Assembly (NCBI RefSeq): GCF_900176365.1
Contig: NZ_FWXY01000002.1
Span: forward strand, 1 to 64,000
Length of the DNA: 64,000 bases
Source: Desulfocicer vacuolatum DSM 3385
GTDB lineage: Bacteria > Desulfobacterota > Desulfobacteria > Desulfobacterales > Desulfobacteraceae
Reading direction: 5' to 3'
The translations under genes were made by a program, and so were the position numbers. How positions within the stretch are numbered: the stretch's first letter is position 1; every line of letters begins with the position of its first letter. The notes beneath the pieces were generated by a model. It ran no database searches and was not told where the DNA came from. It worked only from the letters and a program-made list of their open reading frames with translations. This document shows, one piece after another, positions 1 to 63,935 of the stretch.

Positions 1-91
1 TCCTGCAAGCAGGAACTTTCTCGTTCGACTTGCATGTGTTAAGCACGCCGCCAGCGTTCATTCTGAGCCAGAATCAAACTCTCCAGTTATA
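1..91 (-). rRNA. rrs: 16S ribosomal RNA, 5' end only
   Basis: The reverse complement carries the near-universal 16S start: AGAGTTTGATTCTGGCTCAG followed directly by the conserved GAACGCTGGCGGCGTGCTTA and the start of the V1 stem. Only about the first 90 nt lie in the window; the rest runs off position 1. The mature 5' end is estimated from E. coli alignment and could be off by several bases. A promoter and boxA leader lie just upstream. Confidence 0.97.
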
Positions 92-4268: not shown

Positions 4269-4310
4269 TGTTTTTTCCCGGAAGGGGAAATCAGAAATAA
4301 AATCAGATAC

Positions 4311-4441
4311 AGCCCCCACAGCATACCGTGTTGCCCATGTCTTTGAACCAGTAGTTCAAAAGGTCGGGCGCCCATATAATTAGCACCTTCAGGCTTTTCC
4401 ATGCAATGTGGAACTTGCACACCGGCACCAGGGTGGGCTCC
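4311..4441 (-). ncRNA. ssrS: probable 6S RNA (core)
   Basis: 6S RNA binds the sigma70 holoenzyme as a promoter mimic and is often encoded next to zapA, as here. The minus strand starts GGGAGCCC and closes with GGGGGCT; inside this stem, CCGGTGT pairs with ACACGG. The 3' side of the inner region holds the hairpin TTTGAACTACTGGTTCAAAG, close to the small CCTTGAACC...GGTTCAAGG hairpin of E. coli 6S. A promoter-like TTGCTT/TATA pair precedes it and a strong terminator follows at 4244. The 131-nt core is shorter than the usual 180 nt, so the true ends may extend toward the terminator. Another structured RNA is possible. Confidence 0.55.
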
Positions 4442-4445
4442 CTTG

Positions 4446-4476
4446 TATATAGCGTTAGGCAAAGCACTCTAAGCAA
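4446..4476 (-). promoter_or_regulatory. candidate promoter of the 6S-like RNA
   Basis: On the minus strand TTGCTT (4471-4476) is followed 17 to 19 nt later by the overlapping -10 candidates GCTATA, CTATAT and TATATA. The expected start lies at the GGGAGCCC that begins the RNA stem. The spacing is slightly ambiguous. Confidence 0.4.
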
Positions 4477-4536
4477 TCACAAGTAGCGCAGGGGTGTTTC
4501 TGTTTTTATTTATGTGCAGGATAATCCTGTGTGGTA

Positions 4537-4893: not shown

Positions 4894-5142
4894 TTAAGAC
4901 GTCTCTGAAAAGGTGTTCAGTTTAGTCAAAAGACCATCAATCTTTGATTGAACAGCCGCCTCTTTTTTTGCAAAGTGCTCTTCAGACAAATCCTTTTCAG
5001 CAATCTGACCTTCAAGGGTCTTTACCTTGCCCAGCAATTCCTCATTTTCCTGTTGAAGTGTCTGACAAAGCTCTATTAAAAAATCGACTTTCTCGTCAAT
5101 ATCTTTAAACTTATCTTCTAACAACTCATGCTCGTTTTCCAT
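4894..5142 (-). CDS. zapB: ZapB-like cell division coiled-coil protein
   Basis: An 82-aa protein that is nearly all charged heptad-rich helix (LLEDKFKDIDEKVDFLIELC onward), the size and composition of ZapB, the coiled-coil factor that links ZapA to other division proteins. It directly precedes zapA, which supports the assignment. Coiled-coil proteins are easy to misname, so the family call rests mainly on size and synteny. Confidence 0.7.
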   Translation of the reverse strand: MENEHELLEDKFKDIDEKVDFLIELCQTLQQENEELLGKVKTLEGQIAEKDLSEEHFAKKEAAVQSKIDGLLTKLNTFSETS

Positions 5143-6077: not shown

Positions 6078-6482
6078 TCACATGGATGCAATATCCAGTC
6101 GATGCAAGGCCCGCCTTAAAGCGGCTTCGGCCCGGACAAGGTCAATGTCATCGGAAGCGGCAGAAATTCGCTTTTCAGCTCTATCCTTTGCCTGCCTGGC
6201 CCGATCCACATCAATGTCTCCCCTGCGTTCAGCTGATTCAGCAAGCAGGGTCACCTTGTTGGGCAGTGCTTCGGCAAATCCACCGTTGACAAAAAGATAA
6301 CGTTCTTTGCCTGATGCGTCTTTGTACCGAAGTGTGCCAACCTTCAAGGAGGTCAGAAAGGTGGTGTGGCCACGAAGCACGCCAAATTCACCTTCCGTAC
6401 CCGGAGCAACCACAATCTGAGCTTCTTCGCTGACCACCGCCTTTTGGGGGGTGACCACTTCCAGAAATATATTCTCAGCCAT
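6078..6482 (-). CDS. atpC: ATP synthase F1 subunit epsilon
   Basis: Rotor subunit of the F1 sector that binds gamma and can restrain ATP hydrolysis. At 134 aa it shows the usual beta-sandwich N-terminus (PQKAVVSEEAQIVVAPGTEGEFGVLRGH, residues about 11-38) and a C-terminal two-helix part with RARQAKDRAEKRI. Last gene of the operon, 15 bp after atpD. Confidence 0.95.
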   Translation of the reverse strand: MAENIFLEVVTPQKAVVSEEAQIVVAPGTEGEFGVLRGHTTFLTSLKVGTLRYKDASGKERYLFVNGGFAEALPNKVTLLAESAERRGDIDVDRARQAKDRAEKRISAASDDIDLVRAEAALRRALHRLDIASM

Positions 6483-6497
6483 TTTATCCCCCTTGAG

Positions 6498-7928
<1,431 letters not shown>

Positions 7929-16548: not shown

Positions 16549-17825
<1,277 letters not shown>

Positions 17826-44520: not shown

Positions 44521-45541
44521 GGGGTCAGGCTTCGCTTATTGCGGTTATTCGTTTTTTGATACATTCTATTTTTTCATGCATTGACCGATTTTTTGTAAGA
44601 CGGGTACGTACATCCTTCACCAATCTGCTCATTGATGGCATATTCCGGTTAAAATAGTGCGCAAAATCTGACAACAAAAAATCAAAACAATCCATACCGA
44701 TCAGTGCAATGACGGCTCTTGCTTCTGCCGGATGCCTTGCACGACTGGCACTTGTCAGTTCCATCGGTGAAACTTGATATACCTTTGCCACAACATCCAC
44801 TATCTGCTCAATGGTAATCTTCGTTGAAATCTTTTCCTTATTTTGTTTCAGTGCTCCTTTAATAAAATCTTCACTGCCGAGTATTCGACCCTGCCCGGTG
44901 CCATGGCGAAGCTGCTCCAGAAGCTCTTTTTCTGTGGTTTGTCCCATAAAATGCAAATAGGCAGCCTGTGCAGCAATTTCTGTTTTGCCAAATTGTCCCA
45001 GCCCCTTATCAACGGTTAACCAACCGGGTGATTTCACACGCCCGGTGTATGCAGCATGGCTGCTCAACGGGTAATCAATTGGATCGCTCACCAGATTCGA
45101 TCGCACCGGATTAAGGTGAATATATCGGATCAACTCCGTGAAATAAGCATCTTTGTCCACAAGAATGGCTTTATACCGCCCCTGGAAAAGATGCCCCACC
45201 CGGTCATACCGCTTATTGAACCAGTATGTATAACGCTGGGAGATATTTTGCATCAATTTTGAAAGTGGTTTATCTGTAACCTGCAATGCCATGTGAACAT
45301 GATTTTTCATCCAGCAGTACGCATGCAATATGAGCGAATGTTGCTCCAGCCCCTGGGCCAGAATATCTTCAAAATACCGATATTCTTCGTCACCATGAAA
45401 AATAGGCTGCTTTGCGTTTCCCCTGATCATCACATGATAAATTGCGCCTGGGTAGTGTATCCGAGGTTTTCTTGCCATAACTATTTCCATACCATGAATA
45501 TGTCCACAATACAATAACCACAATAAACGAAGCCTGACCCC
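44521..45541 (-). mobile_element. RAYT unit A1 with inverted REP-A ends (1,021 bp)
   Basis: Bounded on the left by GGGGTCAGGCTTCGCTTATT plus GCGGTTATT (44521-44549) and on the right by its near-perfect inverted copy (45513-45541, ending CGAAGCCTGACCCC). The only gene inside is a REP-associated tyrosine transposase on the minus strand. A second unit at 59505-60525 has the same ends and exactly the same length. No target-site duplication is obvious. Confidence 0.8.
44525..45478 (-). CDS. REP-associated tyrosine transposase (RAYT) A1
   Basis: 317 aa, a single-domain Y1 HUH transposase: N-terminal RKPRIHYPGAIYHVMIRGN, the HUH motif in KNHVHMAL, the catalytic tyrosine in IRYIHLNPVRSN, and a C-terminal helical extension. 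RAYTs are thought to bind and nick REP hairpins as single strands. I start at MARKPRIHY (45478), matching the paralogue at 59509. The last codons and the stop (AISEA, TGA) are encoded by the REP-A end itself. Confidence 0.9.
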   Translation of the reverse strand: MARKPRIHYPGAIYHVMIRGNAKQPIFHGDEEYRYFEDILAQGLEQHSLILHAYCWMKNHVHMALQVTDKPLSKLMQNISQRYTYWFNKRYDRVGHLFQGRYKAILVDKDAYFTELIRYIHLNPVRSNLVSDPIDYPLSSHAAYTGRVKSPGWLTVDKGLGQFGKTEIAAQAAYLHFMGQTTEKELLEQLRHGTGQGRILGSEDFIKGALKQNKEKISTKITIEQIVDVVAKVYQVSPMELTSASRARHPAEARAVIALIGMDCFDFLLSDFAHYFNRNMPSMSRLVKDVRTRLTKNRSMHEKIECIKKRITAISEA

Positions 45542-45542
45542 A

Positions 45543-46835
45543 TTAGAGGCGCCAGAAGTTTATGCCGGTTTTGTTGACGGCATCCATGTCCAGCATGGAC
45601 TTTACGTCTATGAGGCAGCCTTTATTATTCAGGCAGGCGGTGAAGTCTGATACGGATAATTCTCTGTACTGTTGGTGGGGCACGGCAATGATCAAGGCAC
45701 CCAGATCGGTCATTTTTTCCCAGGGCTGTAGCTCCACACCATAGTAGTTAAGGGCTTCCGCCCCATCGGCCATGGCATCATGCACCAGCACCTCAGCACC
45801 ATAATCTTTTAGTTCATCAATGATATCAATAACCCGGGTATTTCGTAAATCCGGGCAATCCTCCTTAAAGGTCAGGCCCAACACCCCCACCCGGGCGTTC
45901 TTGATATTCTGGCTGGAATTAATCATCATTTTCACGGTTTTTTCCACCACAAACCGGCCCATGTTGTCATTGATGCGCCTGCCTGCCAGGATCACTTCGG
46001 GATGATACCCCTCGGATTCTGCCTTGAATGTCAGATAATAAGGGTCTACCCCAATGCAATGGCCCCCCACCAGACCCGGTGAAAACTTCAGAAAATTCCA
46101 CTTGGACCCTGCCGCCTCCAGCACATGTTTGGTATCAATGCCCAATCGGTCAAAAATCAGGGCCAACTCGTTCATCAGGGCAATGTTCAAATCCCGCTGG
46201 GTGTTTTCAATCACCTTGGCGGCCTCGGCTTCTTTAATGGTAACCGTGCGATGCACCCCAGCGGTGACAATGGATTCATACAATGCCGCCACCCGTTCCA
46301 GGGTGGGTTCATCATCCCCGGATACCACCTTGGTGATCTTTGTTAACGTGTGCTCTTTGTCACCGGGGTTGATGCGCTCGGGGGAATACCCCACATGGAA
46401 ATCTTCCTTCCATTTGAGTCCCGACTCCTGCTCCAGAATGGGCACACACAAATCCTCGGTCACCCCGGGATACACCGTGGACTCAAAAATCACCAGCGCC
46501 CCTTTTTTCATGTGTTTTCCAACGGTTCTGGAGGCCCCTTCCACGGGCCTTAAATCCGGACGTCTGGCGCGATCAATGGGGGTAGGCACGGCCACCACAA
46601 TGTAATCGGCATCGGACAGCATGGCAGGATCGCAGGTGGCTGTAAACCGAACTGCCCGGGCAAACTCCTCCCGAGACACCTCACCGGTGGGATCTTCCAT
46701 AATTCGGCAATTTTCAATGATACTCTCTTTGAGGTCAAACCCAACCGTATCAAATTTTTCACCAAAATGAATTGCCAGGGGAAGCCCAACATAACCAAGC
46801 CCAACAACAGCTATCTTAGATTGATCATTCATCAA
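45543..46835 (-). CDS. UDP-N-acetylhexosamine dehydrogenase (WbpA/TviB-like), copy 1
   Basis: 430-aa nucleotide-sugar 6-dehydrogenase. N-terminal NAD fold with VVGLGYVGLPLA (residues 10-21), catalytic cysteine C260 in GLVGGHCIGVDPYY, lysine K207 in EAAKVIENTQ, and the C-terminal UDP-binding domain with LGLTFKEDCPDLRNTRV. It likely makes a UDP-HexNAc uronic acid for O-antigen or capsule. A second copy at 51950 is about 93% identical. The stop codon is 1 nt before REP-A. Confidence 0.93.
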   Translation of the reverse strand: MMNDQSKIAVVGLGYVGLPLAIHFGEKFDTVGFDLKESIIENCRIMEDPTGEVSREEFARAVRFTATCDPAMLSDADYIVVAVPTPIDRARRPDLRPVEGASRTVGKHMKKGALVIFESTVYPGVTEDLCVPILEQESGLKWKEDFHVGYSPERINPGDKEHTLTKITKVVSGDDEPTLERVAALYESIVTAGVHRTVTIKEAEAAKVIENTQRDLNIALMNELALIFDRLGIDTKHVLEAAGSKWNFLKFSPGLVGGHCIGVDPYYLTFKAESEGYHPEVILAGRRINDNMGRFVVEKTVKMMINSSQNIKNARVGVLGLTFKEDCPDLRNTRVIDIIDELKDYGAEVLVHDAMADGAEALNYYGVELQPWEKMTDLGALIIAVPHQQYRELSVSDFTACLNNKGCLIDVKSMLDMDAVNKTGINFWRL

Positions 46836-46856
46836 TTTTACCTTTTTAAATAAAAT

Positions 46857-46942
46857 GGGGGTCAGGCTTCGCTTATTAGCGTTATTGTAAAACTGCCGAT
46901 ACTTTTCCCCCTAAATAACCACAATAAGCCAAGCCGGACCCC
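46857..46942. repeat. paired REP-A (BIME-like) upstream of dehydrogenase 1
   Basis: GGGGTCAGGCTTCGCTTATT at the left and an inverted AATAACCACAATAAGCCAAG...GGACCCC at the right, 86 bp in all, enclosing GCCGATACTTTTCC. The inner CGC-TTATTA-GCG forms a mini-hairpin. It is followed at once by a REP-B element. Confidence 0.8.
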
Positions 46943-46952
46943 AAATCAGATT

Positions 46953-47059
46953 GCTTAAATGCCCCTTTTGGGCATCAAAAAGTGCACGCTAAGGCCGTTT
47001 TGACTCATATTCAATCAAACATTTCATATAAAAACAAAAACTTAACGGGGTCAGACCCG
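46953..47059. repeat. REP-B element 1
   Basis: About 107 bp: starts GCTTAAATGCCCC with a TGCCCCTTTTGGGCA hairpin, has AAAAAGTGCACGCTAAG in the middle and ends ACTTAACGGGGTCAGACCCG. The last ten bases supply the stop codon of the adjacent polymerase gene. Confidence 0.8.
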
Positions 47060-48457
47060 CTTAAAGACCATGGCGGTTAAGACTGTGAATAGGACGATAT
47101 TGGCGGGGATGTGAAGATTGAAGTCGGAAAAACTGTGGATTAGAATGGCTACCATGGACGCCATACAGCCCAGGGTGATGCCCATGGTCTGGCGGCTTCG
47201 GCCATTTAGTTTTCGAAAGCCCTCCCGGAAAAAGAGAAACAGCAGCCACAGCACCAGCGGGATAAAAAAGATGCCGGTGTCGGCCATGAACTGCAGATAA
47301 TCCTGGTGGGCATACAGCGGCAGCACGGCCATGCCCGGGGCTTGATAGGCGGGAAACGCCTCGGCATAGGTGCCAGGCCCTGTGCCGGTGTAAAGATTGT
47401 CTTTAATCAGGGTTTCCGTCCCGTCCCAAAAGGTAATCCGGCCGATAAGATTATCATCTAATTCCACCTTTGTCAGGGTTGTAATCCTCTGCACCACCGG
47501 CGTACTGGCAAGAATAATTGCCCCCACCACAACCACGGACACGGCAATACCCGCAATGAGCCTTTTTTGCTGAAACCCCTTTTTCAGTAGCAGCACCACC
47601 ATCATGAAAACCAGGGCCCCCACGGTGGCGGTCCATCCCCCCCGGGAAAGTGTCAATGCCTGGGCCACAATTAAAAACAACACCAGGCAGATCATACCGG
47701 TGCGCACTTCAATACTCCGGGATCGGGTGAGAAACAGCCCCAGCAACACCGGAATAGACATCTCCAGAAAACCGGCCATATGATTACGATTCACATATAC
47801 GCCTGACAGGGAAAGCCCCCTGCCCCCCTTTCCCAGCTCTTCGGAGTAATCCCACCAGGGAAACACCAGCAGATCAAAACGCTTCAGCATGCCAATAATG
47901 GACAAAAACAAAGCCATGCCCACAATAACCCCCACCAGAATACGCTGCTCCTTTCTGGTTCGCACCACATCACAGGCAATGTAAAACAAGGCCAGATAGG
48001 TCACCAGCATGATCATGCCTTCCATGGCAAGGCTACCCTGGCGGGAAAAAAAGGTGGCCCACGCCCCCAGCAAGGTGCAGGGAACCACCACCAACCAACC
48101 TATCTGCTTTGCCGAAAGCCCTAAACCTGCCCCTCTCCCGGAAGATTTAGTTATTCTTGAACCGGACGAGCCCATGGAACGACTGACCTTTTCCGAATCT
48201 ATCCGCCCTTTTGAACGCCTTTTTGTTACCCCTGGGCCCTGGATTTCCGCTGTCGGGACAGCCTCTGATGGATCCCTGGATAACAACTTCCCCAGAAAAA
48301 CAAACAATCCCCCGGTCAAAACCAGCATCTGAATCACAGTCTCTGCCCACAAGTGCACAGCCCCCCTGAACATGGGCGTCAACACCACCAGTGAGCATAC
48401 CACCAAAAACCCGGAATTTTTAAATACTGTTTTAAATACTGAATGAACATCGTCCAT
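47051..48457 (-). CDS. O-antigen ligase/polymerase-like membrane protein
   Basis: About 468 aa, ten to twelve helices, with the O-antigen ligase domain region LTLSRGGWTATVGALVFMMV and the large periplasmic loop containing GTGPGTYAEAFPAYQAPG, then HQDYLQFMADTGIF. A hydrophilic, Ser/Arg/Lys-rich stretch lies at about residues 67-115. Wzy-type polymerase or WaaL-type ligase cannot be told apart by eye. ATG at 48457 with GAGGA 7 nt upstream. The TGA stop lies within the REP-B end, in GGGTCTGACCCC. Confidence 0.82.
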   Translation of the reverse strand: MDDVHSVFKTVFKNSGFLVVCSLVVLTPMFRGAVHLWAETVIQMLVLTGGLFVFLGKLLSRDPSEAVPTAEIQGPGVTKRRSKGRIDSEKVSRSMGSSGSRITKSSGRGAGLGLSAKQIGWLVVVPCTLLGAWATFFSRQGSLAMEGMIMLVTYLALFYIACDVVRTRKEQRILVGVIVGMALFLSIIGMLKRFDLLVFPWWDYSEELGKGGRGLSLSGVYVNRNHMAGFLEMSIPVLLGLFLTRSRSIEVRTGMICLVLFLIVAQALTLSRGGWTATVGALVFMMVVLLLKKGFQQKRLIAGIAVSVVVVGAIILASTPVVQRITTLTKVELDDNLIGRITFWDGTETLIKDNLYTGTGPGTYAEAFPAYQAPGMAVLPLYAHQDYLQFMADTGIFFIPLVLWLLFLFFREGFRKLNGRSRQTMGITLGCMASMVAILIHSFSDFNLHIPANIVLFTVLTAMVFKRV

Positions 48458-50087: not shown

Positions 50088-50231
50088 ATGTTAACAGCAG
50101 AACAGGTAATAAACGAAATCTACCTCTTTACAAGGCCGAAGGTCGGCAGAGCATATTCATTGGATCTATCAGCGCTGTACTTTACCCCCCCAACAACGCC
50201 CATAAGCCAAGCCCACTATGCCCTTGCTTAA
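50088..50231 (+). pseudogene. gene 5' fragment ended by repeats
   Basis: An ATG with GAGGATCAAC upstream opens a frame starting MLTAEQVINEIYLFTRPKVG; after about 30 residues it runs into a REP-A-like/REP-B repeat and stops. The start resembles the N-terminus of small antitoxin-like proteins, but no family can be assigned. It looks like a gene cut by repeat insertion. Confidence 0.35.
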
Positions 50232-50333
50232 AAGCCCCTTTTGGGCATCAAAAAGTGCACTCTAAGGCCGTTTTTGGCCATACTTTAGACAACATTACAC
50301 ATAAAAACAAATACTTAACGGGGTCAGACCCGG
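50225..50333. repeat. REP-B element 2
   Basis: 109 bp: GCTTAAAAGCCCCTTTTGGG, AAAAAGTGCACTCTAAGGCC, end ACTTAACGGGGTCAGACCCG. Preceded by a degenerate REP-A' (CATAAGCCAAGCCC). Confidence 0.8.
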
Positions 50334-50985: not shown

Positions 50986-51062
50986 TAGGGACAAATTTTT
51001 AAATCTGTCCCCGCCCCCCCCCAAAAACACCAATAAGCCAAGCCTAACCCCAATAGGCCCTT

Positions 51063-51170
51063 GCTTAAAAGCCACTTTTTGACCTCAAAAAGTACACGCT
51101 AAGATCATTTTTGCCCATTTTCAAGGCAATATTCTTTATAAAAACAAAAACTTAGCGGGATCAGACCCGG
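51063..51170. repeat. REP-B element 3
   Basis: 108 bp, GCTTAAAAGCCACTTTTTGA start, ACTTAGCGGGATCAGACCCG end. Preceded by CAATAAGCCAAGCCTAACCC (degenerate REP-A'). Confidence 0.75.
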
Positions 51171-51679: not shown

Positions 51680-51754
51680 TTCCGGTGCCGGTCAACGTAC
51701 CCACGCTATCTTGTCAATGAGCAGAGCAATCAGATAATAAACAACATAGCCCAA

Positions 51755-51918
51755 AGGGCCAGGCCTGTAACAACTAAATAATCTCGGTACTGAACGGCGT
51801 GGGCTGTCCAGCCCAGGACCCTGTTCAGGCGCGGAGCGCCGGGACAAGGTGCTGACGCAGTCAGCACTGCGATTCACGGTGGCGCAGCCGCCGTACAAAA
51901 GGAGATACTTTACCCCCC
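51755..51918. repeat. R3 composite repeat, copy 1
   Basis: About 165 bp of stacked hairpins: GGGCTGTCCAGCCC, GGCGCGGAGCGCC, GGTGCTGACGCAGTCAGCAC, and ACGGTGGCGCAGCCGCCGT. It leads into TACTTTACCCCCC and a degenerate REP-A next to the dehydrogenase 2 stop codon. Near-identical copies lie at 61817 and 62683. Confidence 0.85.
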
Positions 51919-51949
51919 AGGGACGACAACAACGCAGGCCTGACCCCAA

Positions 51950-53242
51950 TTACAGGCGCCAGAAGTTTATGCCGGTTTTGTTTACGGCATTGACGTCGAG
52001 CATGGACTTTACGTCTATCAGGCAGCCCTTTTTATTGAGGCAGGCGGTGAAGTCTGAAACAGGCATCTCTCTATACTTGCGGTGGGGTACGGCAATGATC
52101 AAGGCACCAAGATCGGTCATCTTTTCCCAGGGCTGCAGATCCACACCATAGTAATTATGGGCCTCGGCGGCATCGGCCATGGGATCATGGACCAGCACAT
52201 CAGCACCATAATCCTTTAATTCAGAGACAATATCAATTACCCTTGTATTACGCAGATCCGGGCAATCCTCCTTAAATGTCAGGCCCAAAACCCCCACCCG
52301 GGCGTTCTTGATATTCTGGCTTGCATTAATCATCATCTTCACCGTTTTTTCCACCGCAAACCGGCCCATGTTGTCATTGATGCGTCTGCCTGCCAGAATA
52401 ACCTCGGGATGATACCCCTCGGATTCCGCCTTGAATGTCAGATAATAGGGATCAACCCCAATACAATGCCCCCCCACAAGCCCCGGTGAGAACTTCAAAA
52501 AATTCCACTTGGAACCCGCCGCTTCCAGCACATTTTTGGTATCAATGCCCAGTCGATCAAAAATCAGGGCCAGCTCGTTCATCAGGGCGATATTGAGATC
52601 CCGCTGGGTGTTTTCAATCACCTTGGCTGCCTCGGCCTCCTTGATGGTAACCGTGCGATGCACACCGGCAGTGACAATGGATTCATACAATGCAGCCACC
52701 CGTTCCAGGGTGGGTTCATCATCCCCGGACACCACCTTGATGATCTTGGTCAGGGTATGCTCTTTGTCACCGGGGTTGATGCGCTCGGGGGAATAGCCCA
52801 CATGGAAATCTTCCTTCCACTTGAACCCAGACTCCTGCTCCAGAATGGGCACACAAAGATCCTCTGTCACCCCGGGATACACCGTGGACTCAAAAATCAC
52901 CAGAGCCCCTTTTTTCATGTTTTTCCCAACGATTCTGGATGCCCCTTCCACCGGCCCCAGATCAGGACGTCTTGCGCGGTCAATGGGGGTGGGCACGGCC
53001 ACCACAATGTAATCGGCGTCGGAAAGCATGGCAGGATTACAGGTTGCCGTAAACCGAACGGCCCGTTGAAACTCCTCTTGACTCACCTCGCCGGTGGGAT
53101 CTTTCATCTCCCCACAATTTTTGACAATGCTCTCCTTGAGATCAAATCCCACAGTATCAAATTTTTCACCAAAATGAATTGCCAGGGGCAGCCCGACATA
53201 ACCGAGCCCGACAACAGCTATCTTAGATTGATTATTCATCAA
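51950..53242 (-). CDS. UDP-N-acetylhexosamine dehydrogenase, copy 2
   Basis: 430 aa, about 31 differences from copy 1 at 45543 (about 93% identity). The NAD motif, C260, K207 and FKEDCPDLRNTRV motif are unchanged, so it is probably active. Differences cluster at residues 40-60 and 335-400. A gene duplication within the island or acquisition of a close homologue; both copies end 1-2 nt before GGGGTCAGG. Confidence 0.93.
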   Translation of the reverse strand: MMNNQSKIAVVGLGYVGLPLAIHFGEKFDTVGFDLKESIVKNCGEMKDPTGEVSQEEFQRAVRFTATCNPAMLSDADYIVVAVPTPIDRARRPDLGPVEGASRIVGKNMKKGALVIFESTVYPGVTEDLCVPILEQESGFKWKEDFHVGYSPERINPGDKEHTLTKIIKVVSGDDEPTLERVAALYESIVTAGVHRTVTIKEAEAAKVIENTQRDLNIALMNELALIFDRLGIDTKNVLEAAGSKWNFLKFSPGLVGGHCIGVDPYYLTFKAESEGYHPEVILAGRRINDNMGRFAVEKTVKMMINASQNIKNARVGVLGLTFKEDCPDLRNTRVIDIVSELKDYGADVLVHDPMADAAEAHNYYGVDLQPWEKMTDLGALIIAVPHRKYREMPVSDFTACLNKKGCLIDVKSMLDVNAVNKTGINFWRL

Positions 53243-53283
53243 TTTTACCTTTTTAAATCAAAATTCAATTGGGGTCAGATTTG

Positions 53284-53391
53284 GCTTAAACGCCCCTTTT
53301 TGGCATCGAAAAGTATGCGCTAAGCCCTTTTTTGCCCATATTTTAGATAACATTATGCATAAAAACAACAACTTATCGGGGTCAGACCCGG
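53284..53391. repeat. REP-B element 4
   Basis: 108 bp, GCTTAAACGCCCCTTTTTGG start, ACTTATCGGGGTCAGACCCG end. A further partial copy of its last part (AAAACTTAACGGGGTC) follows at 53402-53420. Confidence 0.8.
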
Positions 53392-53494
53392 CTATAGGGA
53401 AAAACAAAAACTTAACGGGGTCCAGAAACCATTATCCCGACTAAAAAGACTAAAAACCTTTACAGGTGTTATCAAATTTGATAACTTTCAACTT

Positions 53495-53821: not shown

Positions 53822-54104
53822 TCTCAGTTTTGAAAATTTTAAAGATGAAGCATTGAAAAATACAGCAGTAAAAAAAGAATATGACGCCCTTGGACCGGTG
53901 TTTGAACTACGACGCAAATTAATTAAGCTAAGAACAGCCAAAGGTGTAACCCAGGAACAACTTGCCCGGATAATGGGAACCAACAAAAGCAATATCTCCA
54001 GGCTGGAATCCGGTGAGAATATTTCCTATCCCACATTTAAAACAATCTCAAAATATGCAGCTGCCCTGGGCTACAAGGTTGATATTGAATTCAGGCCTGT
54101 TTGA
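53814..54104 (+). CDS. higA: HigA-like XRE antitoxin
   Basis: 96 aa. Helix-turn-helix at about residues 38-85: LIKLRTAKGVTQEQLARIMG, NKSNISRLESG, then YPTFKTISKYAAALG. Partner of the toxin just upstream. An exact 100-bp copy of its 3' end (54015-54114) is found at 57200-57299. Confidence 0.92.
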   Translation: MDDLSFENFKDEALKNTAVKKEYDALGPVFELRRKLIKLRTAKGVTQEQLARIMGTNKSNISRLESGENISYPTFKTISKYAAALGYKVDIEFRPV

Positions 54105-54172
54105 GAAACCAATCATATTAGTGTAGTGCTTTTAGTGCGGGTCTGACCCCGATAAGTATCTATAATTGATAA

Positions 54173-55054
54173 TTATTCTTCCCAAACAACAGCATTTTCA
54201 CCTCTTAAAACCCAGTTTTCGGGGGCAAAAACAGCATTGTAAGAACTTTGGTCTTCATAAATTGCATAATCTTCCCGGGAAGTTTCAACAGGGGGAGGCA
54301 CAACTCCATCCAGGTCGGGGATAAAATCAGCCCTGTCCCGACATCGAATCTGCCCATATCGTTTCACTGGAAATGAGGGTGCCTTCACCCTTTGAATTTT
54401 GTGGTTTCTTCCAAATTTTTCACCATTGCTTTCAATATATCTGCGACTCCCCACAGCCAGGCTACCGGTCCATATGCTTTCTCGCTTCAAACTGCCATAA
54501 TTCAAGGTATATCCCACCAAGTCTTTGTAATAACTTTTAAATTCATCTTGATCAAAAATACCGGAACAGGAATAAAGCGCATCGTGATCAATCAATCGAT
54601 ACCGCTCCGGGGGATCTAAAATTTCATTATACCCGCAGTATTCCCAGTCCTTGGGATGTTTCACCCTGCCGGCGCGCACCATGTTCATCTCAATATAGGC
54701 CATGCACCGCAATAAATGAACACCGTTTTCAATGGCAGTTGTGTAAAATCGATCCTCCCAAAAAGCGCCTTTCCTGTTTTTCCGGGCATTGTACGCCTGC
54801 CCCGTGTTGCCGGACACCAGCTGCATACTCTTGGAAATTACGTCTCTGCCACTGTCCGCGGCCAGCAGATGGATATGATTGCACGTGACCGCATAGGTCA
54901 ACACCTTTAGTCCAAACCGTTTTTTGGCTTCAAAAAGCCAATTGCGCCAATTTTTTCTGTCCTTGTCAAACTTGAGGAGATGCTCTTTTTTATGACATCT
55001 GTGGGTGATATGCCATAAAAATCCTGGAATATGTAGTCTTTTTCTACGTGGCAT
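54173..55054 (-). CDS. REP-associated tyrosine transposase (RAYT) B
   Basis: About 293 aa, Y1 HUH transposase of a different lineage from the A copies: PRRKRLHIPGFLWHITHRCH, HUH motif in TCNHIHLLA, a Phe/Trp-rich region GAFWEDRFYTTAI, and catalytic tyrosine in CMAYIEMNMVRAG. The long C-terminal extension (RVKAPSFPVKRYGQIRCRDR onward) is unlike the A copies. ATG at 55054 with AAGG upstream. Its ends match REP-B, so it is the probable driver of that family. Confidence 0.88.
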   Translation of the reverse strand: MPRRKRLHIPGFLWHITHRCHKKEHLLKFDKDRKNWRNWLFEAKKRFGLKVLTYAVTCNHIHLLAADSGRDVISKSMQLVSGNTGQAYNARKNRKGAFWEDRFYTTAIENGVHLLRCMAYIEMNMVRAGRVKHPKDWEYCGYNEILDPPERYRLIDHDALYSCSGIFDQDEFKSYYKDLVGYTLNYGSLKRESIWTGSLAVGSRRYIESNGEKFGRNHKIQRVKAPSFPVKRYGQIRCRDRADFIPDLDGVVPPPVETSREDYAIYEDQSSYNAVFAPENWVLRGENAVVWEE

Positions 55055-55079
55055 TTTGGTCACCTTAAAATTTTAAAAA

Positions 55080-55185
55080 GCTTAAAAGCGCCTTTTTGGC
55101 ATCAAAAAGTATACTCTAAGTCCATTTTGAGCCATATTTTAGCAAACATTTTCTATAAAATCAAAAACTTATCGAGGTCAGACCC
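55080..55185. repeat. REP-B element 5 (right end of RAYT unit B)
   Basis: 106 bp, GCTTAAAAGCGCCTTTTTGG to CGAGGTCAGACCC. It separates the RAYT B gene from the hipT stop codon. Confidence 0.8.
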
Positions 55186-55193
55186 TCACAGCC

Positions 55194-56865: not shown

Positions 56866-57084
56866 ATTAATGCAATATTTTTTTAATTTTACAGATAATT
56901 GTATGTGGAATTGCGAATACAAGCGGCTCATATTAAAGGCCTGATTTTTTAAACAGACTTTGATTCATGTTTTTCACTCAGCAACGGAATCAGACATCGT
57001 AACGAAAACTCTGATACAAGCAAAACACACACCGACACTTTATTTTACCAGCAATAAGCCAAGCCTGATCACACGTAGTTTGAT

Positions 57085-57190
57085 GCTTAAAACCACTTTT
57101 TCAGCACCCAAAAGTACACTTTAAGACGATTTTGACCCCAAATTTAGAGCATATTTCTTATAAAATCAAAAAATTATCGGGGTCAGACCC
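57085..57190. repeat. REP-B element 6
   Basis: 106 bp, GCTTAAAACCACTTTTTCAG start, AAATTATCGGGGTCAGACCC end. Preceded by a REP-A' trace (GCAATAAGCCAAGCCTGATC). Confidence 0.75.
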
Positions 57191-57199
57191 CCATATTAC

Positions 57200-57299
57200 G
57201 AGAATATTTCCTATCCCACATTTAAAACAATCTCAAAATATGCAGCTGCCCTGGGCTACAAGGTTGATATTGAATTCAGGCCTGTTTGAGAAACCAATC
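57200..57299 (+). pseudogene. duplicated 3' end of higA (100 bp exact)
   Basis: Identical to 54015-54114, covering the last 29 codons of higA and 10 bp past the stop. It has no promoter or start. Together the two copies bracket RAYT unit B and hipBST as a direct repeat of 100 bp. Confidence 0.95.
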
Positions 57300-59504: not shown

Positions 59505-60525
59505 GGGGTCAGGCTTCGCTTATTGCGGTTATTTGATCTTTGATATGCTCCACTCTTTCAAGCATTGACTGGTTTTTTGTAAGGCGAGTACGCACATCCT
59601 TGACCAGCCTGCTCATTGATGGCAGATTCCGGTTAAAATAGCGTGTAAAATCTGACAGCGAAAAATTACAATAATCCATACCGATCAATGCGATGATGGC
59701 TCTTGCTTCTGCCGGATGCCTTGCGCGACTGGCACTTGTCAGTTCCATAGGTGAAACTTGATATACCTTTGCCACGACATCCACTATCTGCTCAATTGTA
59801 ATCTCAGTTGAAACCTTTTCTTTGTTTTGTTTGAGTGCACCTTTAATAAAGTCTTCACTGCCGAGTATCCGTCCCTGCTTGGTGCCATGGCGGAGCTGCT
59901 CCAGAAGTTCTTCTTCTGTAGTTTGTCCCATAAAATGCAAATACGCAGCTTGTGCAGCCAATTCTGTTTTGCCAAATTGTCCCAGACCCTTATCAACGCT
60001 TAACCAGCAGGGTGATTTCACACGCCCGGTATATGCAGCATGGCTGCTCAACGGATAATCAACTGGATCACTTACCAGATTAGCTCGTACCGGGTTAAGA
60101 TGAATATAGCGGATCAGCTCTTTCAAATAAGCATCTTTGTCTACAAGAATGGCTTTGTACCGCCCCTGGAAAAGATGCCCGACCCGATCGTACCGCTTAT
60201 TGAACCAGTGTGTATAACGCTGGGAAATATTTTGCATCAGTTTTGAAAGTGGTTGGTCTGTGACCTGTAGTGCCATGTGAACATGATTTTCCATCCAGCA
60301 GTACGCATGCAGCATGAGCGAGTATTGCTCCAGCCCCTGGGCCAGAATATCTTCAAAATACCGATATTCTTCATCCCTATGAAAAATAGTCTGCTTTGCG
60401 TTACCCCTGATCATCACATGGTAAATTGCTCCAGGGTAATGTATGCGAGGTTTTCTTGCCATAATTATTCACATACCATGAATATATCTACAATACAATA
60501 ACCACAATAAGCGAAGCCTGACCCC
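59505..60525 (-). mobile_element. RAYT unit A2 with inverted REP-A ends (1,021 bp)
   Basis: Ends GGGGTCAGGCTTCGCTTATT (59505 on) and CGAAGCCTGACCCC (to 60525), inverted, exactly the same length as unit A1 at 44521. It lies between the dehydratase and aminotransferase genes. An extra GTGGGGGTCATTA in front of the left end looks like a partial duplication of the tip. Confidence 0.8.
59509..60462 (-). CDS. REP-associated tyrosine transposase (RAYT) A2
   Basis: 317 aa, about 90% identical to A1 (44525). HUH motif in ENHVHMALQ, catalytic tyrosine in LIRYIHLNPVRAN, same C-terminal AISEA from the REP-A end. Intact. Two intact, diverged copies point to maintained function rather than recent transposition. 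Confidence 0.9.
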   Translation of the reverse strand: MARKPRIHYPGAIYHVMIRGNAKQTIFHRDEEYRYFEDILAQGLEQYSLMLHAYCWMENHVHMALQVTDQPLSKLMQNISQRYTHWFNKRYDRVGHLFQGRYKAILVDKDAYLKELIRYIHLNPVRANLVSDPVDYPLSSHAAYTGRVKSPCWLSVDKGLGQFGKTELAAQAAYLHFMGQTTEEELLEQLRHGTKQGRILGSEDFIKGALKQNKEKVSTEITIEQIVDVVAKVYQVSPMELTSASRARHPAEARAIIALIGMDYCNFSLSDFTRYFNRNLPSMSRLVKDVRTRLTKNQSMLERVEHIKDQITAISEA

Positions 60526-61710: not shown

Positions 61711-61816
61711 GGGTTTATGCGTTACCTTTTTTCATTTTTTGGACGCTTCACGATATTCAATTTGATCAATTTTCATAACTCTGGCTGGAACGCCTAAAAT
61801 AAAAAACCTGATCCAG

Positions 61817-62012
61817 AGGGCCAGGCCTGTAACAACTAATTAATCTCGGTACTGAACGGCGTGGGCTGTCCAGCCCAGCACCCTGTTCAGGCGCGGAGCG
61901 CCGGGAAAAGGTGCTGACACAGTAAGCACCGAGATTCACGGTGGCGCAGCCGCCGTGAAAGAAAGGTGTATACTTTACCCCCCAATAACCACAATAAACG
62001 AAGCCTGACCCC
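61817..62012. repeat. R3 composite repeat, copy 2, with REP-A
   Basis: Same hairpin order as copy 1 (GGGCTGTCCAGCCC, GGCGCGGAGCGCC, ACGGTGGCGCAGCCGCCGT), then TATACTTTACCCCCC and a 29-bp REP-A at 61984-62012. Confidence 0.85.
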
Positions 62013-62050
62013 CATGATGACCCCCATGACCCCCACAATACTGATGTTGA

Positions 62051-62549: not shown

Positions 62550-62682
62550 CGTGGGCCGGCTTGTTTGGATATGGCGGAGTTTTGGTTAATAAATAGACAT
62601 AATCTATTGAATTTATAGCAATTATTGAAGAGATACAAGACTGAACCTACTCGACACTGAATAATCCCGGCGATGATCTGAG

Positions 62683-62833
62683 TGGCGTATCCAGCCCAGC
62701 ACCCTGTTCAGGCGCGGAGCGCCGGGACAAGGTGCTGACGCAGTCAGCACCGAGATTCGCGGTGGCGCAGCCGCCGTGAAAGAAAGGGCTATACTTTACC
62801 CCCCAATAACCACAATAAACGAAGCCTGACCCC
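62683..62833. repeat. R3 composite repeat, copy 3, with REP-A
   Basis: R3 hairpins (CCAGCCCAGCACC, GGCGCGGAGCGCC, GGCGCAGCCGCC) then REP-A at 62805-62833. A REP-B end (ACTTAGCGGGGTCAGACCCT, 62861-62880) follows and meets the stop codon of the NeuD-like gene. Confidence 0.85.
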
Positions 62834-62879
62834 ACCACGACCTTTCCTATAAAATCAAAAACTTAGCGGGGTCAGACCC

Positions 62880-63935
62880 TCACAGGCTCACAGGGATGCC
62901 GACGACTACAGCATTCTTTGGCACATCTTTATTTACAAAGCTGAAGGCCCCCACCACAGCGTTTTCACCCACAGTTACCCCGGGCATGACCACGCTATGG
63001 CTGCCGATGCGAGCATTTTTACAAAGGGTCACCTGCCCCTGCTTGTCATCAATGGTGGACACAGAATAAATGGAGCAATGGGAGCCAATCTGAACAAAAT
63101 CCCCAATGATAACCCCATGTTTTGCATTGATATAAGAAAAAGCCCCAATGTCTGTCTTATAACCGAGTTGAAATTTCTCGGTATTTTGAACCACCCAATT
63201 GTATTTTGTTGGTTGGCCATCCACTATTTCCGGGTATTGCCACTGGCTGAAACGATCGCTGGAACTCTCAGATATCTCAGGATCGGGGTTTACCAAGTTC
63301 CCTTGCGGGCACCCCCCCCAAGTTCCAGAAGTGACTGATTTGGTCACGCAAGCCCCGGCACCAATAATCACATCATCACCAATGACCAAGGGGTTTTCTT
63401 TGGTGCCATTCAAAAATACCGCACCCGTTCCCACATATACTCTCTTGCCCAGATACACATATCCTGAAACATGAACACCCGGGGCCAAAGTTGCGTAGTC
63501 ATCCATGATCACATCGTGGCCAATGGTGCAGTCCAGATTGATCTGCACATGATTTCCCATTTTAATGTTGGTGGTCAGGATGCAACCCGAACAGATCACC
63601 GTGCCTTCACCCATTTCAACCCAGGGAGACATTTCCGTTCGGGGATGAATCAATGTCCCTATTGATAGCCCTTCTTGTCGGACCTTTTTAGTAATTTTTT
63701 CTCGTATCTGGGGAGACCCCACGGCAACAACAACCCAAGCATCAGGAAATTTATCCTTGGCTTCCCCAAGAGACATGACCGGGATTCCGTTCATTTCTTT
63801 ACCATGGTATTTGGGATCATCATCAACAACTGCAACCACTTCGCATTCATTGCAGCTCTGCGCCAGCCAGGCGATTTCCCGGCCAAAACCTCCGGCTCCA
63901 TACACCACAATTTTTCTGAATTGATTATCTGGCAT
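62880..63935 (-). CDS. NeuD/PglD-like sugar acyltransferase fused to a second hexapeptide domain
   Basis: 351 aa. N-terminal nucleotide-sugar-binding fold with VVYGAGGFGREIAWLAQ (10-26), then a left-handed beta-helix (about 95-205) ending in GGCPQGNLV, as in NeuD/PglD acetyltransferases (about 215 aa). A linker (DPEISESSSDRFSQW) leads into a second beta-helix (about 250-351: GAFSYINAKHGVIIGDFVQI, GSHSVVMPGVTVGENAVVG). Probably N- or O-acetylates the amino sugar made by the DegT enzyme. The fusion is unusual. A C8 run at 63311-63318 sits at the join but the frame is open. Confidence 0.83.
   Translation of the reverse strand: MPDNQFRKIVVYGAGGFGREIAWLAQSCNECEVVAVVDDDPKYHGKEMNGIPVMSLGEAKDKFPDAWVVVAVGSPQIREKITKKVRQEGLSIGTLIHPRTEMSPWVEMGEGTVICSGCILTTNIKMGNHVQINLDCTIGHDVIMDDYATLAPGVHVSGYVYLGKRVYVGTGAVFLNGTKENPLVIGDDVIIGAGACVTKSVTSGTWGGCPQGNLVNPDPEISESSSDRFSQWQYPEIVDGQPTKYNWVVQNTEKFQLGYKTDIGAFSYINAKHGVIIGDFVQIGSHCSIYSVSTIDDKQGQVTLCKNARIGSHSVVMPGVTVGENAVVGAFSFVNKDVPKNAVVVGIPVSL

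Follow-up and report, generated by a model that had tools for sequence, protein, structure and literature searches.

Polar arrays of a repeat matching the ends of a Y1 transposase unit coincide with duplication edges beside a surface-polysaccharide cluster

Integron cassette arrays are polar rows of small genes, many of them toxin-antitoxin modules. REP-like repeats, by comparison, are usually viewed as dispersed small parasites or as RNA elements. In RAYT/REP pairs and BIMEs, as described in the cited passages of Nunvar 2010 (PMC2817692) and Nunvar 2013 (PMC3686654), inverted palindromic repeats flank a transposase gene, repeat and gene diverge together, several pairs may be present per genome and repeats may occur without a cognate RAYT. 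REPs are described in the relevant part of PMC3733652 as mostly dispersed, with close pairs mostly inverted. TIRYT genes and TIRtrons, in the sections cited here (Di Nocera et al. 2013, PMC3733652; Quentin et al. 2018, PMC6006769), likewise comprise a Y1 transposase with terminal inverted repeats (TIRs) that may also be present at other sites of the genome; a strain in which two TIRYT genes have two TIR families is recorded there, as are self-complementary TIRs. The presence of two transposase/repeat pairs in one genome, which the sequence-only reading of the present locus had emphasised, is therefore already known from these accounts (PMC2817692, PMC3686654, PMC3733652). At the locus described below, the repeats of two families, each linked to a transposase, are arranged in polar arrays, and these coincide with duplication edges near a surface-polysaccharide cluster. 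The DNA analysed, referred to here as the window, is a stretch of 64,000 nucleotides comprising positions 1-64000 of contig 63 (C63) of a 5.04-Mb genome assembled in 80 contigs (G000). A small-subunit rRNA end lies at the contig edge (window 1-89), and a 6S RNA gene at 4309-4497.

RAYT B and the REP-B repeat

The RAYT B gene, the ends of its unit and the other copies of REP-B in the window are as follows.

54173..55063, minus strand: RAYT B, Y1/HUH transposase; open frame starting at GTG 55063 or ATG 55054, with the motif CNHIHLL
55079..55186, minus strand: upstream end of the RAYT B unit, a REP-B with its tip outward
54137..54245, plus strand: downstream end of the RAYT B unit, a REP-B with its tip outward, over the 3' end of the gene (nhmmer E 6.7e-14)
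46951..47060, minus strand: solo REP-B, its tip overlapping the stop codon (47051) of an O-antigen-ligase-like gene
50224..50333, minus strand: solo REP-B; a duplicated fragment with the 5' part of a DegT gene starts 13 nt outside the tip
51061..51170, minus strand: solo REP-B, from alignment and profile search
53283..53391, minus strand: solo REP-B
57083..57192, minus strand: solo REP-B; a 100-bp perfect copy of a HigA-like gene end starts 10 nt outside the tip
62842..62880, minus strand: partial REP-B, tip half
53400..53422, minus strand: short partial REP-B, tip-proximal part only

The catalytic tyrosine of RAYT B is presumably that of the stretch YIEMNMVRAG. The protein has a Y1_Tnp domain (Pfam PF01797, E 1.2e-9, 38.7 bits against a cut-off of 23) and, with a domain above the cut-off and the HUH motif CNHIHLL, it belongs to the Y1/HUH superfamily (TnpA_Y1). 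The sole PDB sequence match at E 0.01 was TnpArep 4er8 (E 0.0063), and no HTH domain was found with Pfam at E 0.001. With 26-27% identity to the transposases A1 and A2 over 137 aa, the gene at 54173 is indeed a separate and distant Y1 gene, as had been proposed from the sequence alone. The proposal that its unit ends in inverted B-type tips is also borne out: the unit lies between inverted GGGTCTGACC tips, reading GGGTCTGACCCCGATAAGT from 54139 and an inverted ACTTATCGAGGTCAGACCC ending at 55185, with a single mismatch (GAGG for GGGG).

Both ends of the unit are full-length REP-B elements, the downstream one having been found with a profile built from 12 elements (nhmmer). The last ~24 aa of RAYT B (54173-54245) are encoded inside this downstream element, and the repeat is thus constrained both as coding sequence and as end sequence. 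The same coding downstream end is present in the B orthologues of two other genera (G030 and G033), which are 72-73% identical to RAYT B over the matched part, and solo copies of this coding-type end lie at 964777 and 969425 in G033. The G030 orthologue has B tips at both ends, the downstream tip with a changed middle base (GGGGTCAGACCC), and that of G033 retains a B tip at its downstream end only, with REP-A upstream. Since orthologues of two other genera keep tips, the tips of the unit are not chance neighbours, which is the objection that the sequence-only reading had raised against itself.

The upstream ~108 bp of RAYT B recur in the window as five full and two partial copies, such that the six ~107-bp REP-B elements of the earlier reading correspond to five solo copies plus the upstream end of the unit itself, and the partial copies that it had reported are present at 62842-62880 and about 53400-53422. 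When the whole genome was searched at the DNA level with this upstream end, the unit, four solo copies and one partial copy were recovered, all in the window, together with three weak matches elsewhere; the fifth solo copy (51061-51170) was recovered by alignment and profile search. Beyond the window, the same contig has five divergent REP-B elements at 94-104 kb, in reversed orientation, and weaker ones at 64.7 and 121 kb, and a further divergent element is located on contig C49.

REP-B elements are ~110-115 nt long. The consensus of 35 elements from several genomes comprises a near-invariant tip, GGGTCTGACCC, a variable middle of ~50 nt and a conserved A/T-rich inverted repeat ending in TTTTAAG(N)ATTTTG, the ATTTTG at the inner end being weak when the flanks are read. 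A target-site consensus contains weak information only, located at -5..-1 and at the element's inner end. Of 80 elements, 13 have a GGGGTC-type tip in the same orientation no more than 40 nt from their inner end, several of them, in different genera, with the linker ATTTTGCCT, and A and B tips therefore travel as composites too.

The tip is palindromic and able to form a hairpin of 4-5 bp, and several tips adjoin start or stop codons, as might be expected if REP-B were mainly a transcribed RNA element, a terminator or mRNA stabiliser, kept for gene expression. However, RNAalifold returned nothing but the almost invariant tip hairpin, covariation of the distal inverted repeat was not above that of shuffles, and no Rfam match fell on REP-B at the gathering threshold in the window or in L021, the part of the contig that includes the 94-104 kb region, the sole matches being to 6S and small-subunit rRNA. 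Single-sequence DNA folds of four elements gave z values of -0.4 to -2.8. Moreover, the elements are not oriented alike with respect to transcription in the two arms of the G000 array. On RNAalifold, shuffles, folds and Rfam, a structured-RNA reading of REP-B is not supported, and a main role in gene expression is considered very improbable.

Tip types and their distribution

The A-type features of the window are listed first.

44521..45541, minus strand: A1 unit, inverted A tips enclosing a TIRYT-like Y1 transposase that matches Bac_DnaA_C
59505..60525, minus strand: A2 unit, 90% identical to A1
46858..46942, no strand assigned: two-ended REP-A adjoining the inner end of the REP-B at 46951

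The Bac_DnaA_C match of A2, at 32 bits, is just over the cut-off of 31.5, and that of A1, at 27.5, is under it. The sequence GGGGTCAG, as found in the A tips, has 22 occurrences in the window where 2.7 are expected, a count that none of 100 shuffles reached. Two further repeats have A-related tips. A repeat of ~180-215 bp that ends in a REP-A tip and contains palindromes of the CGGCGCGGAGCGCCGGG type is found at 51736-51950, 61798-62015 and 62656-62834 (83-90% identity). A two-ended element of ~97 bp (GGGGTCAGGCTTTTGTTATTG ... CAATAACGAAAGCCTGACCCC), its tip a variant of the A tip, is dispersed over at least 20 places on 12 contigs (e.g. L079, C62:56761-56857, and also L076 and L080-L084); the seven copies read are closely alike, and this element is genome-wide whereas REP-B is confined.

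Four Y1 genes exceed the Pfam cut-off in G000, namely A1, A2, B and a D copy on contig 32, and RAYT B and D are 53% identical over 221 aa. The D transposase (L023, about 6425-7425) is of a sister type to B and lies between inverted GGGTCGGGCCAC tips; a weak match to a D-like solo element is located at C63:120793-120901. In a tree of 16 proteins, 7 of the 13 inner branches of which have support under 80, A stands apart from B/D and the three B proteins group together with a support of 88/100. This branch, together with the TCTGACC tips found on B units (with the exception of the downstream tip of G030, TCAGACC), bears out the claim that B represents a transposase lineage of its own, with a repeat of its own. 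Among those B/D-type relatives whose flanks were read, a subset, GGGTCGGGCC or close variants accompany nine genes from six other genomes as well as the D copy of G000 itself; no such tip was seen in the flanks of a more distant Y1 gene of G032 (33% identity). The differences between B and B/D tips track the protein types, indicating that enzyme and tip diverge together.

In native orientation the tips read GGGGTCAGGCTTCGCTTATT for A, GGGGTCTGACCCCGCTAAGT for B and GGGGTCGGGCCACGCTAACC for D, and all three have GGGGTC.G.C..CGCT.A in common, which makes a common ancestor of the tips plausible. Support for the core that REP-A and REP-B were said to share is weak: the GGGGTCAG found in B is partly its own palindrome read from the other strand.

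Nine of 58 relatives and 39 of 389 members of the order have the pattern GGGTCTGACCCNGNYAA, and a control search with the reversed pattern matched one genome. Exact B tips are clustered: all seven in G033 fall within 42 kb of a 5.2-Mb genome, all nine in G030 within 83 kb, and 11 of the 12 in G000 are on contig 63. An intact B-type transposase was found in three of the 39 tip-bearing genomes (G000, G030 and G033) and fragments in two more (G359, 80%; G383, 56%), the remaining 34 having more distant relatives (42-62%) or none at E 1e-30; G318 and G366, with 21 and 23 tips, are among those with no match at that threshold. The sequence-only reading paired each repeat with its own transposase and took a wide occurrence of REP-B without a B-type RAYT to speak against this. 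Such an occurrence is part of what was found, no intact B transposase having been detected in most of the tip-bearing genomes. Strict pairing is nevertheless weakened rather than refuted, since many of the assemblies are fragmented into hundreds of contigs and REPs are known to outlast their RAYT, persistence after RAYT loss being described as common in the part of PMC3686654 cited here.

Polar arrays around a polysaccharide core

Neighbouring REP-B elements no more than 20 kb apart share the same orientation in 55 of 57 cases over all stretches compared, these stretches having been chosen for having tips and five RAYT-unit ends having been removed beforehand; the exceptions are 103842/121250 in G000 and 4495/6715 on contig C24 of G366. 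Outside G000, G030 and G033, exact-tip neighbours within 20 kb agreed in 36 of 36 cases among the matches listed, at most about ten per genome, as judged by eye.

A map of tips and genes in G000, G033 and G030 reveals a tip-free core with flanking tips on both sides directed at it, and core-facing tips on both sides are present in four genomes of three genera when G359 is included (G030 and G359 being of one genus, with loci that look orthologous on reversed contigs). Counting single A and B tips, 43 of 48 to the left of the core are '<' and 46 of 52 to the right are '>', each directed towards the core. The borders of the core were drawn after the map had been seen; 15 two-ended A pairs were left out of these counts, concordant tips in them still include transposase-unit ends, and one A tip of G033 that points the opposite way, at 980980, lies just beyond the border and is uncounted. 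Five of the 11 exceptions are the transposase units' own ends (44521, 59505, 54139, 3211282 and 3212271) and one, 48494, is part of a two-ended element with a degenerate partner, the other five being at 3121429, 118055, 121248, 3194733 and 3201784. In G359 the same flip is seen for six REP-B elements, three on either side, and for most A tips, with unpaired A-tip exceptions at 17562, 23693 and 97691.

Where scanned, the cores contain glycosyltransferase and sugar-nucleotide genes. A family could be assigned to 4/5 core genes in G033 (one F420-hydrogenase-like), 3/3 in G030 and 9/10 in G359 (one only FemAB-like). In the G000 core one of three scanned genes has a family, glycosyltransferase, and two have none at E 1e-8; the genes that flank this core in the window are of the glycosyltransferase/sugar-nucleotide kind.

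We infer, rather than observe, the cause of the polarity flip at the core. REP-B could belong to an ordinary RAYT/REP pair, its polarity merely reflecting the direction of replication through a lagging-strand preference, and the anatomy and co-divergence described above do fit RAYT/REP pairs. IS200/IS605 transposition is strand-specific in the cited section of PMC8266576, and GC skew changes sign near the core in G030 and G033. However, orientation flips within one locus, and the G000 core shows no sign change of GC skew. In G033 the sampled skew is positive in 7/9 stretches to the left of the locus and 8/8 to the right, out to about 0.4 Mb, so that the sign change at the locus is local, and the best DnaA match is 1.7 Mb from the locus in G033 and 0.8 Mb in G030. 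Replication direction is thus quite improbable as the basis of the pattern. A replication origin or terminus behind the flip was rejected, the sampled G033 skew being positive for the most part to the left and right of the locus, and the best DnaA match lying far off.

The genes between tips in G000 include HipA, a HigBA-like pair (Gp49 + HTH_3), BrnA, HicB-like + HicA, HEPN with a nucleotidyltransferase, and TacA with a GNAT enzyme, with toxin-antitoxin modules among them, and in addition DUF1353, lysozyme-like, Rpn/YhgA-like and beta-CASP genes; no family was found for two scanned frames. At 94-104 kb on the contig (L021 9800-20000), lysozyme-like, DUF1353 and beta-CASP blocks are repeated between B and A tips and are partly truncated. 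Ten genes were scanned in the right arm of G033, five of which belong to families also represented in the right arm of G000, in partly different order; one further gene is HepT-like and one, below the cut-off, ParE-like. The genes between tips, toxin-antitoxin modules included, are partly reshuffled between genera. Arrays of different species also share segments of 90-99% identity, for example 91% over 725 bp between G000 and G030, and 99% over 357 bp between G359 and G030 of the same genus.

Polar arrays of small genes with toxin-antitoxin modules would also be expected of integron cassettes, or of integrase-less cassette clusters in which REP-B takes the place of attC, and integron-type integrases over the family cut-off do occur elsewhere in G000, G033, G030 and G366. 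The two of G000 are located away from the arrays, at C62:50980-51918 and C47:438127-439059. Conversely, no integrase exceeds the cut-off on the array contig or locus, and none does so in G359 or G318; the two ends of a Y1 transposase unit are both homologues of REP-B; and the tip-side genes lie in different senses in the two arms of G000. An integron origin of the arrays therefore appears extremely improbable.

Duplicate edges, a proposed mechanism and known systems

Two pairs of duplicates in the window illustrate the relation between tips and the edges of copied DNA.

57200..57299, plus strand: 100-bp perfect copy of a HigA-like gene end, with a B tip on one side and a tip-like GGGGTCTGATC on the other
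54015..54114, plus strand: the other copy of this 100-bp perfect duplicate
45532..46855, minus strand: UDP-sugar dehydrogenase gene copy 1, 88% identical to copy 2; its edge at 46855 is 3 bp outside an A tip
51938..53262, minus strand: UDP-sugar dehydrogenase gene copy 2

Edges were scored for duplicated segments of at least 150 bp and 80% identity, within or between arrays, an edge being placed at a tip if it fell between 2 nt inside and 12 nt outside it. In the first three genomes, 22 of 146 duplicate ends were at tips against a mean of 1.9 for shifted tips (maximum 10; 0/1000 reached 22), and for nine more stretches, matched against one another and against the first set, 22 of 226 ends were at tips against a mean of 2.4 (maximum 11; 0/1000). 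In both sets, duplicate ends just outside tips are therefore about tenfold above the shifted-tip expectation, although duplicates share junctions and are not independent, the 22 ends touching 14 distinct tips in the first set, one of which belongs to the RAYT B unit of G030, and 13 in the second. Excluding the RAYT unit, the six distinct B-tip edges lie 7, 8, 9, 9, 9 and 9 nt out, and A-tip edges are scattered 0-10 nt out with no fixed cut. Two duplicates of the window fall outside the limits of the test: the 100-bp copy that starts 10 nt outside the B tip at 57190 is too short, and a 183-bp duplicate starts 13 nt outside the B tip at 50331, beyond the 12-nt limit.

Passive old transposon ends subject to homologous recombination constitute the main rival explanation: unequal crossing-over between direct repeats would duplicate or delete genes, and selection against deletion of the core would leave two arms that are mutually inverted. 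Polarity and tandem duplications are both expected on this account, several duplicates have a tip at the same place in both copies, and the arrays persist where no intact B transposase was detected. Against it, the tip is present in one copy only at 19/22 edges of the first set and 22/22 of the second, giving one-sided edges, and in G030 one gene edge falls on an A tip in the copy at 3155885 and on a B tip in that at 3157034, two tips with little in common beyond GGGGTC. Recent bare copies with sharp ends on both sides also occur, at 5085/4245 in G285 (99%) and at 962216/968631 in G033 (95%). Recombination between old ends probably contributes, but as the explanation of the whole it is unlikely.

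Sharp ends are a general property of the elements. Of 1392 element pairs, 1141 have at most 15 nt in common beyond the element on either side; in 103 more than 30 nt are shared on the inner side only and in 24 on the outer side only (at most 15 nt on the other side), four extend on both sides and 120 are in between, the pairs overlapping heavily and hence not being independent. No B-type transposase was found in G285 in a search at E 1e-30, and the bare copies of that genome point to an element that can be copied alone. At the level of sequence, these comparisons establish the anatomy of REP-B, its co-divergence with the enzyme, its sharp ends, clustering and polarity, and the enrichment of duplicate edges at tips.

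We think it reasonably probable that REP-B is a locally and directionally copied non-autonomous element, the tips of which act as breakpoints, with strand transfer by a Y1 enzyme. RAYT B would be a Y1/HUH (IS200/IS605-like) transposase bounded by two outward-facing REP-B elements, and the solo elements non-autonomous copies of the end of its unit. RAYT B or a relative would cut single-stranded DNA a few nucleotides outside the tip and then rejoin it, by which REP-B would spread locally and in a single orientation. The outer side of the tip would thereby become a breakpoint at which neighbouring genes may be joined, duplicated or lost, and B tips together with A-type (TIRYT) tips would build polar arrays of small accessory genes flanking the polysaccharide cluster. 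The edges 7-9 nt outside B tips bear only indirectly on cleavage and strand transfer at REP-B; that the transposase makes the breaks, and does so by a single-strand route, is what we infer.

A bolder proposal, which we regard as doubtful, is that A and B tips jointly form a directional gene-cassette system, an HUH counterpart of the integron, in which strand transfer at the outer side of tips adds, duplicates and removes accessory genes, many of which are toxin-antitoxin modules, and polar arrays face and bracket a swappable polysaccharide cluster as an evolvability locus of this family. If the enzyme does make the edges, there would be a second single-strand route, besides integrons, to arrays of small genes, with a bearing on the turnover of O-antigen-like loci; otherwise the arrays still document, as a natural record, gene shuffling guided by repeats. 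The one-way rows of repeats between small accessory genes, on either side of the surface-sugar genes, suggest a mark of gene-swap sites. Searches of open-licence PubMed Central found no description of such arrays.

Compared with described systems, RAYT B resembles a REPtron in that inverted copies of one repeat, which recurs at other places in the genome, lie on its two sides. REP-B nevertheless lacks the GT[AG]G head by a palindrome, the consensus of 35 elements starting with GGGTCTGACCC, and, rather than being mostly dispersed with close pairs mostly inverted, it is clustered with 55/57 neighbours in the same orientation, a loose comparison given that the dimers in the relevant part of PMC3733652 are 1-100 bp apart and REP-B neighbours up to 20 kb. 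Relative to RAYT/REP pairs and BIMEs, REP-B has no GTAG/GTGG head, is longer, is present in few copies at one locus and is uniformly oriented along the array. The GTAG-23 REPs of T. roseum are members of the GTAG family, and no polysaccharide locus is mentioned in the passage on them in PMC3733652.

In the wide sense of a Y1 gene with terminal inverted repeats other than GTAG REPs, B, A1 and A2 are all TIRYTs. A1 and A2, with GGGGTCAG tips, also have the GGGGWSAS-type tips and HTH-type C-terminus of subclass 2.1, and so fit TIRYT subclass 2.1 rather than a classical RAYT. RAYT B is a TIRYT in the wide sense only and falls outside subclass 2.1: its native tip is GGGGTCTG, no HTH was found with Pfam, and its ends of ~110 nt have a distal inverted repeat and recur in polar arrays. 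With integron cassette arrays the locus shares polar rows of small genes and toxin-antitoxin modules, but REP-B arrays have no integrase at the locus and their element derives from the end of a Y1 transposon. It is the polar array at a polysaccharide locus, together with the tip-precise duplication edges, that goes beyond the known kind.
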